Positions 33,566 to 39,411 of a stretch of DNA of 64,000 bases are shown in pieces. This DNA comes from Kribbella steppae (lineage in GTDB: Bacteria; Actinomycetota; Actinomycetes; Propionibacteriales; Kribbellaceae). The notes below the pieces were generated by a model, which did no database searches, was not told where the DNA came from, and saw only the letters and a list, made by a program, of their open reading frames with translations. Every line of letters starts with the position of its first letter. Positions within the stretch are counted from its first letter, which is position 1. A program made the translations under genes and the position numbers. The stretch lies in assembly GCF_004342025.1 (NCBI RefSeq), contig NZ_SLWN01000003.1, positions 434,001 through 498,000 of the forward strand. Direction: 5' to 3'.

Positions 33566-34753
33566 ATGGCGGACAAGCCGGCGCCGAAGCCTGGCCATTT
33601 TCTGCCCGGAGGGGCGGGCAGGGACGAGGCGACCGACGGCGGATCCACGCCCGGATCGGGCCCACTGACCGCGCCGACGCCACGGCTGGGAGCAGACAAC
33701 CCGGCCGGGCCGCCGCAGTTGTCGGGGTCCCGGCTGGAGTCGCGGCGATCGGTGCAACTCTCCGGCACCCGGCTCGGCCCGCCACCGCCCAACGATCCGG
33801 CCGCCGCGGCCTATCGAGCCGTCTACGCACCCGAGCCGATCCCGTTCGTACCCAAGAAGCGGTCGAAGGCGCTGATCGCGGCCATCGTGGTCGCCGCGCT
33901 GGTGGTCATCGGCGGTGGTGTCGCCCTCGCCGCGAAGGTGCTGCCGTCGTACGACGACCTCATCGCCAATCCACTCGGTACGCCGTCCTACCATCCATCC
34001 GGCGTACCGAAGCCGTCCGGCAAGCCCACACCGGACCTCGTCGTACAGAAGGAGAACCCCTTCTACGCCACCGGTCCGATGGCCACCGTGAAGTGCCAGG
34101 AGCCCGCGTACCGGCCGACGTCGAAGGAGAACATCCGCTCGTACTACCAGGCCCTGATCGCCTGCATGGACAGCGCGTGGGAGCCGCTCGTCATCGAGGC
34201 CGGGTTCGAGTTCCGCTCGCCGCGGCTGATCGTGTTCGACGAGGGCGAGGAGACGGCGTGCGGGGTCCAGGAGAACGTTTCGTCGTACTGCGCTGACGAA
34301 CAGGGCGGCAGCGTCACGATGCCGTGGCAGGAGCTGACCGAGGAGTATCCGCAGCACAAGGCGAACGTCCGGGTCGACATGGCCCAGTCGCTCGGTTTCG
34401 TGTACGGCGCCCACCTGCAGAACCTGACCGGAATCTTCGACGCGACCGACAACCTGCGCGACACCGAACCGACCGAGGCGGCACGACTGGAGATGGATCG
34501 GCGCCAGGCGCTGCAGGCGAACTGTCTGTCGGCCGCGTTCTTCGGCGCGGCCAAGGCCAGCTTCCCGCTGCGCGGCGAACTGCTGACCCAGTGGAGCTGG
34601 CTGATCAAGCACAGCGGCGACGAGCACTCCGAGGACAAGGTCCGCGATCACGGGTCGGCCAAGAGTCTGGCGCTGTGGATGAACCAGGGCTTTGCCAGCA
34701 CCGATCCCGGCACCTGCAACACTTTCGTGGCATCATCCGCCAAGGTCGGCTGA
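33566..34753 (+). CDS. Membrane-anchored pseudo-metallopeptidase (neutral zinc metallopeptidase family), copy 1
   Basis: A 395-residue type II membrane protein: cytoplasmic Pro-rich part (1-98) with PKPGHFLPGGAG near the start, one helix (about 102-123), then an extracytoplasmic domain of the YpfJ-like neutral zinc metallopeptidase family. The active site is destroyed: HEYGH of the third paralogue is FVYGA here (H to F278, E to V279, H to A282) and the distal Glu ligand is A315. Conserved Cys pairs (VKCQEP/ACMDSAW, ACGV/YCAD, NCL/TCNTF) remain, so the fold is probably kept. ATG 33566 follows a GGGGA. It heads a three-gene operon. It may be a binding or regulatory pseudoenzyme. Confidence 0.82.
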   Translation: MADKPAPKPGHFLPGGAGRDEATDGGSTPGSGPLTAPTPRLGADNPAGPPQLSGSRLESRRSVQLSGTRLGPPPPNDPAAAAYRAVYAPEPIPFVPKKRSKALIAAIVVAALVVIGGGVALAAKVLPSYDDLIANPLGTPSYHPSGVPKPSGKPTPDLVVQKENPFYATGPMATVKCQEPAYRPTSKENIRSYYQALIACMDSAWEPLVIEAGFEFRSPRLIVFDEGEETACGVQENVSSYCADEQGGSVTMPWQELTEEYPQHKANVRVDMAQSLGFVYGAHLQNLTGIFDATDNLRDTEPTEAARLEMDRRQALQANCLSAAFFGAAKASFPLRGELLTQWSWLIKHSGDEHSEDKVRDHGSAKSLALWMNQGFASTDPGTCNTFVASSAKVG

Positions 34754-34781
34754 GAACGGGAACGAGCGATGGGGACGAGCG

Positions 34782-36155
34782 ATGCCTGAGGAGCACCCGG
34801 ACGCAGAACCATCGTCCACGGCCGGCGTATCCACGCCGGCCGATCCAGGCGTGACGCCCGGCCCGGGTACGCCGCCGTCCGGGGGTGGCTCGCCGAAGCC
34901 CGGGCACTTCCTGCCAGGCGGCGCCGGCGACATCCTGACCGACGGCGACCGTGCACGTGCCGCGGACCGCCGCCAGTCGCTCGACCTGGGCAAGGCCCGC
35001 ACCGTCACCGGACCCGTCGACCCGACTCTGCGGAAGAAAGCGCGTCCGCTCCCGCCGCACCCCGGCACCGAGGCCGGGTTCGGCGCGCCTCCGCCCGCCC
35101 CGTTGACCGGTGCCCCTCTCACACCGCTGGCCGGCACCCGCCGTACCGGCAGCTCCCGTCCGGTCGGCTGGCACTCGCCGTCGTCGCGGACCGGAGCCCA
35201 GTTCTCCGCCGAACCGCCGCCGACCACGCCGCCCCGGCAGTACTCCAAGGCAGTGATCGCCGGACTGTCCGCGCTCACGCTGCTCCTGGTCACCGGTGGC
35301 ACGTTCGCGGGCTTCAAGCTCATCGACTCCTACGACTCCGTCGACAGCCCGATGGCCCGCCCCACGGTCAGGAAGTCCGAGCCCCCGCTTCCCGTCCCGG
35401 CCGACCCCACGGTGACCGTGACCGTCCAGCCGGTCCCCGACCTGGTCCGCCTCCGCCAGAACAAGCTCTACACGGTCGGCAAGGTCCCCTCGGTCAACTG
35501 CAAGGAACCGGCCATCAAGCCGAACTCCCAGTCGGCGATCCTGAAGTACTACCAGGCCTTCCTGCCCTGCCTGAACAAGGCGTGGGCACCGCTGGTGAAG
35601 AAGGCCGGCTACGACTTCCACCCGCCGCGGCTGGTTCTGCAGAGCAAGCAGGCGAAGTCGGCCTGCGAGAAGGACATCGGCGGCGTCAACTACTACTGCG
35701 AGACCGCTGACGTGATCAGCCTCAACTGGCAGGCCGATCTCGCGAACTACCGGAAAGACCCGCTGGGGACGCGGGCCTGGATGATGGACGCGATCGCCGG
35801 CATGTACGGCTATCACGTCCAGTACCTGACCGAGATCCTGACCGCGGCGATGTCCCGCAAGGGCTGGGCGAAGACAGAACCGGAGAAGCTCGAGTGGACC
35901 CGGCGGCGCGGACTGCAGTCGGACTGTCTGGGAGCTGCCTTCCTGGGCGCCAACAAGAAGTCGCTCGGTCTCACCGGCGCGAAGCTGGACAGCTGGGAGT
36001 ACCAGAAGAAGCACAGCGGTGACGATGACGAGCCGAAGAAGCCGCGCATTCATGGTTCGTTCAAGAACACCTGGCTCTGGAGCAGCGCCGGCTTCAAGTC
36101 CACCGATCCTGGCTCCTGCAACACGTTCGCCGCCCTCGCGAACAAGGTCAGCTGA
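34782..36155 (+). CDS. Membrane-anchored pseudo-metallopeptidase, copy 2
   Basis: A 457-residue paralogue of the preceding protein: cytoplasmic Pro-rich region (1-152) with the same PKPGHFLPGGAG motif at 38-49, one helix (about 157-178), and the same extracytoplasmic domain. HExxH is replaced by GMYGY (G340, M341, Y344) and the distal ligand by G377, so zinc binding is not expected. The structural Cys are retained (VNCKEP, PCLNKAW, ACEK, YYCE, SDCLG, SCNTF). Start ATG 34782 follows GGGGA, 28 bp after copy 1. The stop overlaps the start of copy 3 by one base (TGATG). Confidence 0.82.
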   Translation: MPEEHPDAEPSSTAGVSTPADPGVTPGPGTPPSGGGSPKPGHFLPGGAGDILTDGDRARAADRRQSLDLGKARTVTGPVDPTLRKKARPLPPHPGTEAGFGAPPPAPLTGAPLTPLAGTRRTGSSRPVGWHSPSSRTGAQFSAEPPPTTPPRQYSKAVIAGLSALTLLLVTGGTFAGFKLIDSYDSVDSPMARPTVRKSEPPLPVPADPTVTVTVQPVPDLVRLRQNKLYTVGKVPSVNCKEPAIKPNSQSAILKYYQAFLPCLNKAWAPLVKKAGYDFHPPRLVLQSKQAKSACEKDIGGVNYYCETADVISLNWQADLANYRKDPLGTRAWMMDAIAGMYGYHVQYLTEILTAAMSRKGWAKTEPEKLEWTRRRGLQSDCLGAAFLGANKKSLGLTGAKLDSWEYQKKHSGDDDEPKKPRIHGSFKNTWLWSSAGFKSTDPGSCNTFAALANKVS

Positions 36156-37069
36156 TGTCAGCTACGGCGAAGGGCGCCGGCCTGGCGATCATCGCCGTAC
36201 TGGTTGCTGTTGTCGCCGGGGCCGCCACCCACCCGGCAGCACCCGCTGTCGCGGAGTCCGCGGTCACGCCGGCCCCGACGGCTCCGACAGCGACAGCGTC
36301 GGCCAAGCCTCGGTCGGCGACCTCGGCCTCGCCGTCGACGAACGATCCGACGTTGGTGCCGATCAAGAGTGGGCTCTACAAAGCGGGCCGGGTGCCGGCG
36401 GTGAGCTGCAAGCTGCCGAGCAAGCTGGTGCGGACGCGGGCCGGGCTGCTCGCCTACGCGAGGCTGATGGTGGGGTGCATGCAGCGAGCATGGACGCCGC
36501 TGGTCGTCCGCGCCGGCTTCTACCTGCCGACTCCCCGGATCGACGCCTACGTGGAGGGCAAGCCGACGGGCACCCAGCTGTGTGACAACCCGCCTCGGCA
36601 TACCGATGCGTTCTACCGCAGCTCGGGAAGTGTCATCTGTTTCGAGTGGCAGGAGTACGCCGACCCGGACAGCGACCCGGTCTGGGATCTGATCGACTTC
36701 CAGGAGATGCTCGCGCACGAGTACGGTCACCATCTCCAGGACACGGTCGACATCCTGCGGACCTACGTGTTCGTCCACGCCGGCGGATCCGAGGCGGTGC
36801 AGTTGGAGGACGAGCGACGCCTGGAACTGCAGGCGAGTTGCCTGGGCGCGGCATTCCTCGGCGCGCACAAGCGGTCGCTCCGATTGACCGGCGGACGGCT
36901 CGACCTCTGGGAAGACATGGTCAAGTACACCGGGGACGAGTACAACCCGGACAACATCCGCGACCACGGCTCCCGCAAGAACCACGGCTATTGGAGCCTC
37001 CGCGCCTTCGCCTCCACCAACCCGTCGTCCTGCAACACCTTCTCCGCCCCGGCGAAGCGAGTCAGCTGA
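36155..37069 (+). CDS. Neutral zinc metallopeptidase, copy 3 (catalytic residues intact)
   Basis: A 304-residue exported protein with a signal sequence (about 8-27) instead of a long cytoplasmic part, a Ser/Thr/Pro linker, and the metallopeptidase domain. Here the site is complete: H188-E189-Y-G-H192 in LAHEYGHHLQD and E224 in RRLELQASC as third ligand. The Cys pattern matches copies 1 and 2. It is probably the only active enzyme of the trio; substrate unknown. Its 3' end overlaps the convergent GNAT gene by 8 bp. How it relates functionally to the two inactive paralogues is inference. Confidence 0.86.
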   Translation: MSATAKGAGLAIIAVLVAVVAGAATHPAAPAVAESAVTPAPTAPTATASAKPRSATSASPSTNDPTLVPIKSGLYKAGRVPAVSCKLPSKLVRTRAGLLAYARLMVGCMQRAWTPLVVRAGFYLPTPRIDAYVEGKPTGTQLCDNPPRHTDAFYRSSGSVICFEWQEYADPDSDPVWDLIDFQEMLAHEYGHHLQDTVDILRTYVFVHAGGSEAVQLEDERRLELQASCLGAAFLGAHKRSLRLTGGRLDLWEDMVKYTGDEYNPDNIRDHGSRKNHGYWSLRAFASTNPSSCNTFSAPAKRVS

Positions 37070-38883: not shown

Positions 38884-39411
38884 TCAGTTCTGCGCGTCCG
38901 GGCCGGCGCGGCGGACGTCTTCCACCTTGGTCATGGCTTCGCGGAGGTCGGCGAGCCAGGTTTCGCTGTGCTGGGCGACGAGTTTGACGCACCAGCCGAG
39001 GGCGTCGCTGCGCGAGCGGGCCACGCCGGCGTCGACGAGGGTGTCGAGGACCTGGCGCTCGGGCTGGCGGAGTCGCGTCATCACCGGTGCGGACAACGAC
39101 GTGAAGATGGTCCGGGTGTCACCGCACAGGACGCCCCAGGCGACCTTGCGGCGGGTCGCGTGCTCGAGTTCGCGGGCGATCTCGATCCGGCGCTCCCGGG
39201 TGTCCTCCCGGTACTGCTTGATCCGGCCCTCTTCAGCGGCGGAGCGCTCGGCCGCGCTCACGTCACCCTTCTGCTCGGGCGCCGTGATCCGCCCGACGAT
39301 CAGAATCTCGTCCCGGTCGATCGTCAGTTCCGGCTCACCCTCGAACCACTCCGCCGGCAGCCGCCCGGTCAACCAGCCCCGCACCCGCTCAACCTCAGTC
39401 TGCGTACTCAT
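38884..39411 (-). CDS. Conserved actinobacterial protein with RHH-like C-terminal segment
   Basis: A 175-residue soluble protein. Charged N-terminal half (WLTGRLPAEWFEGEPELTI, RIKQYREDTRERRIEIARE), then WGVLCGDTRTIFTSLSAPVM and a segment VLDTLVDAGVARSRSDALGW with the spacing of ribbon-helix-helix repressors. I recognise it as widespread in actinobacteria but uncharacterised. Its ATG sits on the edge of a perfect 16-bp palindrome, so the message is probably leaderless and the gene may be autoregulated. Confidence 0.75.
   Translation of the reverse strand: MSTQTEVERVRGWLTGRLPAEWFEGEPELTIDRDEILIVGRITAPEQKGDVSAAERSAAEEGRIKQYREDTRERRIEIARELEHATRRKVAWGVLCGDTRTIFTSLSAPVMTRLRQPERQVLDTLVDAGVARSRSDALGWCVKLVAQHSETWLADLREAMTKVEDVRRAGPDAQN

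Follow-up and report, generated by a model that had tools for sequence, protein, structure and literature searches.

Our analysis revealed that the genus Kribbella carries a fixed, membrane-anchored pseudoenzyme of the YpfJ-type metallopeptidase family (PF04228) next to a live anchored paralogue. The locus lies in the window, a stretch of 64,000 nucleotides from a 9.1 Mb Kribbella genome whose nearest relative is K. turkmenica; K. capetownensis, K. pittospori, and K. antiqua were among the further relatives compared. The pseudoenzyme, copy 1, is genuine and old, and is under purifying selection like its live neighbors. Judged by phylogeny, its zinc-site loss is shown to have a single origin. 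The adjacent copy 2 has also lost its catalytic site, a loss that, on comparison of the orthologues, is private to the window species and recent. The three PF04228 paralogues are arranged head to tail on the + strand as a single operon:

33566..34753, + strand: copy 1, membrane-anchored pseudopeptidase, 395 aa (PF04228, 44.2 bits; orthologues in 35 of 38 Kribbella genomes)
34782..36155, + strand: copy 2, membrane-anchored paralogue of 457 aa, whose catalytic site is lost in this genome alone (orthologues in 38 of 38 genomes)
36155..37069, + strand: copy 3, exported and catalytically intact paralogue, 304 aa (HEYGHHLQ and ELQASC)

The gene layout and the profile scores bear out the preliminary description of three PF04228 paralogues in one operon. 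Copy 2 starts with an ATG at 34782, leaving a gap of 28 bases after the stop of copy 1, and copy 3 starts at 36155 inside the stop codon of copy 2 (TGATG overlap). With copies 2 and 3 scoring 35.3 and 28.3 bits, all three exceed the PF04228 gathering cut-off of 23.2 bits. The likeness among the copies is not due to chance, given the pairwise BLAST E-values of 1e-44 to 1e-73. Each copy contains six Cys at matching positions, in line with the common Cys pattern first reported, and the residues named there were exactly right: F278, V279, A282, and A315 in copy 1, G340, M341, Y344, and G377 in copy 2, and H188, E189, H192, and E224 in copy 3. The HExxH motif with the downstream Glu zinc ligand is found in copy 3 and is missing from copies 1 and 2, which are thus PF04228 relatives by descent rather than active members.

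YpfJ and KPN_02809 (PF04228, NF050010) belong to the same HMM domain family as the three copies and likewise have a Cys-containing extracytoplasmic domain; the HExGHH...ELQA signature is common to the live members. Unlike YpfJ and KPN_02809, the Kribbella copies 1 and 2 are tandem anchored paralogues with PGHFLP tails and without a zinc site, and all three copies score only 30-48 bits, below the curated cut-off of 250 bits, against the NF050010 Zn_HExGHH_YpfJ equivalog (47.8, 30.6, and 30.1 bits for copies 1-3). For KPN_02809, the H171S substitution nearly abolished the activity and lowered zinc binding (PMC3269727). This mutant supports, by analogy, that copies 1 and 2 would be unable to cleave, and both zinc and proteolysis are predicted to be absent from them.

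In the AlphaFold2 models of copies 1 and 2, the domains reached pLDDT values of mostly 80-98 and the tails were disordered. Comparison with solved structures by VIA-align gave a best Z of only 7.7 for copy 1 (3o0y) and only 8.2 for copy 2 (3o0y and neprilysin 6sh1). The best solved matches were mostly zincins at these middling Z-scores, so that membership in PF04228 rests on the HMM and not on structure matches. Foldseek returned no match below 1e-3 in the PDB (E above 0.1), and searching by sequence for solved relatives found none at E up to 1. PMC3650047, considered as the "Zn_peptidase" paper, was set aside as it concerns Zn_peptidase_2 (PF04298), a different family.

Copy 1 consists of a Pro-rich tail of ~100 residues followed by one transmembrane segment and a six-Cys ectodomain, in which the zinc site has been replaced:

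33866..33937, + strand: transmembrane segment of copy 1, ~residues 101-124 (hydropathy peak 2.83; helix 101-125 in the AlphaFold2 model)
34397..34420, + strand: substituted HExxH segment of copy 1, FVYGAHLQ (column counts in 34 aligned rows)
34508..34510, + strand: A315 of copy 1, replacing the third zinc ligand Glu (A in 30 and S in 4 of 34 rows)

The catalytic segment of copy 1 was found in 35 of the 38 Kribbella genomes, and the zinc site is gone in every one of the 35. The first-His position is occupied by F or Y in all 34 aligned rows and the catalytic-Glu position by V in 30 of them, and the aligned orthologues have V, A, L, or I at the second-His position. Next to the lost site, Y280, H283, L316, Q317, and C320 are invariant among the aligned orthologues. 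In the tree, copy 1 forms a single clade with a support of 100, within a locus-specific clade also holding copies 2 and 3. The dN/dS values of close pairs were 0.12-0.34 for copy 1, the same range as for live copy 2 (0.12-0.31). Copy 1 thus combines the loss of catalytic residues in all orthologues with purifying selection, as we demand of a pseudoenzyme, whereas copy 2 is live in all 37 other genomes. The possibility raised at the outset, that copy 1 might be decaying and absent from close relatives, does not agree with a protein dead in 35/35 genomes at such dN/dS values. Of the two anchored pseudoenzymes originally proposed, copy 1 therefore stands, backed by conserved synteny, conserved substituted residues, and selection, and copy 2, dead here only, falls as a conserved one.

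Copy 1 is absent in genomes G008 and G032. In G031 (L135 ~1835-2190), it comprises an intact PGHFLP tail and transmembrane segment followed by a stop; the ectodomain is deleted, and only its last residues remain downstream. In K. antiqua (G005, L132:5273-6594), a single frameshift at about residue 255 divides copy 1 into two parts that are still ~69-81% identical to the window protein, for which reason the frameshift may be a sequencing or draft error. Using a copy 1 profile, we found no orthologue outside Kribbella among 294 genomes of the order, including the 38 Kribbella genomes, and 396 of the phylum. The relatives outside Kribbella are related at the domain level only, and the two inspected are live (G053, HEYGHHVQ; G527, HEYGHHIQ).

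The order kept across Kribbella is the dead anchored copy 1, the live anchored copy 2, and 0-3 further copies that are usually live and exported, with a convergent GNAT gene and then a mechanosensitive channel gene downstream. Copy 1 lies immediately upstream of copy 2 wherever it is present (in one genome, a contig ends within the locus), and copy 3 varies in presence and number. Synteny together with conserved non-catalytic residues, suggested beforehand as the mark of a system, thus holds for dead copy 1 with live copy 2 but not for the dead-dead-live order. The latter was ruled out as a conserved unit and is not a conserved system, since each of the other 37 Kribbella genomes has an intact copy 2; copy 3 is variable, and the order occurs in this genome only.

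Two minor observations concern the locus. A window gene at 38884-39411 (- strand), which adjoins the conserved mechanosensitive channel gene, matched the model of the ATP-binding transcription factor AbmR with 264 bits (cut-off 160). The genome G028 (L158) has the Kribbella locus and falls in the same genus as the window, so that its label, Streptomyces sp. SID13031, looks wrong.

The Pro-rich tails of copies 1 and 2, ~100 and 155 residues long, precede the transmembrane segment, which agrees with the long cytoplasmic parts ascribed to both in the preliminary description. They share a short motif:

33590..33607, + strand: PGHFLP motif in the cytoplasmic tail of copy 1, near-invariant across the copy 1 group (A1)
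34899..34916, + strand: PGHFLP motif in the cytoplasmic tail of copy 2, the second of two genome matches

A degenerate PGHFLP motif matched the six-frame translation of the 9.1 Mb genome only twice, at the N-termini of copies 1 and 2, and the reversed-motif control had zero matches in the same genome. Across the genus, the motif occurs mostly at the copy 1/copy 2 locus. The most divergent copy 2 tail belongs to G032, which is without copy 1 (20 of 52 conserved tail columns changed), but the tail is not degraded in G008 or G031, each with 4/52 conserved columns changed. Decay of the copy 2 tail as a rule upon loss of copy 1 was accordingly rejected.

Because copy 1 is a fixed pseudoenzyme and shares a rare tail motif with the live anchored paralogue that adjoins it, we read it as a non-catalytic subunit or regulator. 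Our tentative preference, held with somewhat less than even confidence, is a Kribbella-specific anchored YpfJ-type peptidase pair in which copy 1 has no catalytic role of its own and instead partners or regulates the protease next to it. The zinc site of copy 1 disappeared in a single event no later than the root of the genus, and the protein would have been retained as a non-catalytic subunit. It may associate in the membrane with the adjacent live copy 2, and could bind or position the substrate or else hold copy 2 in check. The shared PGHFLP-type tails might bind a common cytoplasmic partner or help to pair copies 1 and 2. In the window species, the catalytic site of copy 2 has recently gone as well, whereas its tail, anchor, and disulfide scaffold remain; any proteolysis from the operon would then have to come from the exported copy 3. 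We infer the topology, the physical association, the direction of regulation, and the hand-over of catalysis to copy 3. A more far-reaching version, a new membrane protease complex confined to Kribbella, in which the fixed pseudoprotease partners the live anchored paralogue via the PGHFLP tails and in which one species has moved catalysis to an exported subunit, leaving two dead anchored ones, seems unlikely to us.

Alternatively, copy 1 could be a free-standing binding protein at the cell surface, with the peptidase cleft repurposed as the receptor or adhesin site for a peptide or a component of the wall; its place beside copy 2 would then be due only to tandem duplication. The tree supports such an origin by tandem duplication, and three genomes retain copy 2 without an intact copy 1. 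Copy 1 is not strictly required for copy 2, which is intact in G008, G032, G031, and G005. Co-evolution of the two copies was also no higher than for a linked control: the mirror-tree comparison of copies 1 and 2 gave a partial correlation of 0.52, not above the 0.50 of the linked GNAT gene, which makes this test uninformative on their interaction. The sensing or substrate-presenting complex put forward at the outset gains no support from this comparison. We consider a free-standing binder somewhat unlikely, however, as the two genes have stayed neighbors in the same order throughout the genus and both proteins retain the rare tail motif. The full-length scaffold and six Cys retained by copy 1, with the site filled by hydrophobic or aromatic residues, would also suit an inhibitor or decoy of the live paralogues, acting by substrate capture or inactive dimers. 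The copy 2 of this species, which retains its tail and anchor while the domain changes, might then have converged on the same role. Sequence cannot separate an inhibitor from an activating partner, though, and we regard the decoy role as rather improbable.

Copy 2 has a Pro-rich tail of ~155 residues, one transmembrane segment, and a six-Cys ectodomain, with substitutions at the catalytic positions:

35247..35333, + strand: transmembrane segment of copy 2, ~residues 156-184 (hydropathy; helix 156-184 in the model)
35799..35822, + strand: substituted HExxH segment of copy 2, GMYGYHVQ (H340G, E341M, and H344Y versus 36/36 aligned orthologues)
35910..35912, + strand: G377 of copy 2, replacing the third zinc ligand Glu (E377G versus 36/36 aligned orthologues)

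Orthologues of copy 2 occur in 38/38 genomes, and HExxH and ELQ are intact in all 37 others, the nearest relative included. The window copy 2 breaks 12 of 88 near-invariant columns, with the catalytic columns among them. Of the unique amino-acid changes on its terminal branch, 22 lie in the domain and 1 in the tail or anchor; for the sister genome, the numbers are 9 and 11, respectively (Fisher p = 3.5e-4). With many changes in the domain and almost none in the tail and anchor, the peptidase domain seems to be freed from catalytic constraint. The N/S ratio of the domain on this branch showed no significant excess over synonymous change compared with relatives (p = 0.11).

Copy 2 could simply be decaying, functionless and redundant after copy 3, which would be compatible with any role of copy 1 and which we regard as possible, if short of probable. 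All four catalytic residues are lost, the domain has evolved faster, and both are seen only in this genome, where a live copy 3 is present. On the other hand, the reading frame of 457 codons is uninterrupted, and the single unique change in the tail and anchor is fewer than in relatives. Against its nearest relative, copy 2 shows a dN/dS below 1 (0.38), but the loss may be younger than most of the divergence that this value covers. Copy 2 is always live in genomes where the locus has no other live member, and its loss arose in a genome with a live copy 3; as one event, this tie to copy 3 is only suggestive.

A further dead paralogue, a predicted lipoprotein with an LLAGC lipobox (L128:3236-4180, G004:C286), carries IAGLYGYHVQ, strikingly near the IAGMYGYHVQ of the window copy 2, yet belongs to another clade. 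No third match to the motif occurs in the 38 Kribbella genomes, which suggests either convergence or a favored form of pseudo-site.

Pseudo-subunits of metallopeptidases are already a known kind, and the following systems are precedents for the proposed role of copy 1. The alpha and beta subunits of the mitochondrial processing peptidase and the bacterial two-gene M16B peptidases are homologous inactive and active metallopeptidase partners, encoded in bacteria by a two-gene operon, and their inactive subunit aids substrate binding (PMC11266112). As in Kribbella, inactive and active homologues are encoded side by side, but M16B is another peptidase family with a demonstrated complex, and the Kribbella pair is membrane-anchored and only proposed to associate. 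The degenerate LytM factors EnvC, NlpD, ActS, and DipM are inactive bacterial metallopeptidase domains that lie outside the cytoplasm and regulate hydrolases, LytM-type activators among them (PMC10268282, PMC10336132, PMC8360153); they belong to a different family and act on wall hydrolases instead of a tandem paralogue. iRhom is a membrane pseudoprotease with a cytoplasmic tail that controls a membrane metalloprotease (PMC6451368, PMC13277793). Unlike copy 1, it is a polytopic, eukaryotic member of the rhomboid family whose partner is not a paralogue. A literature search covering few subscription papers found no account of inactive PF04228 members or of such an arrangement, and the metallopeptidase pseudoenzymes with known roles that we found described are mostly eukaryotic or of the LytM and M16 families. 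In Kribbella, a member of the little-studied YpfJ family is fixed throughout the genus as a pseudoenzyme, next to a live paralogue. With either part lost in nature, the locus provides an evolutionary series of dead and live, live alone, dead with dead and live, and tail and anchor only, which lets the role of a protease pseudo-subunit be tested directly.

Copy 3 is likely to be the catalytic subunit in the window species. A signal-like segment at the N-terminus precedes its domain, and the zinc site is retained:

36716..36739, + strand: intact HExxH segment of copy 3, HEYGHHLQ
36824..36826, + strand: E224 of copy 3, the third zinc ligand

PF04228 is expanded in Kribbella, with 9-15 copies per genome in 38/38 genomes. 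Among the other Kribbella paralogues, sampled by regions, all but one keep HExxH and the third Glu. The exception, from a second Kribbella PF04228 cluster (L196:8620-9546, G035), has its second His changed (MAHEYAHSVQ) and lies on a long branch. Four live PF04228 paralogues form a second cluster in L137 (G000:C3:262500-279500). The open frame of one of them spans 673 codons, against 779-832 in relatives, which points to a very long N-terminal extension.
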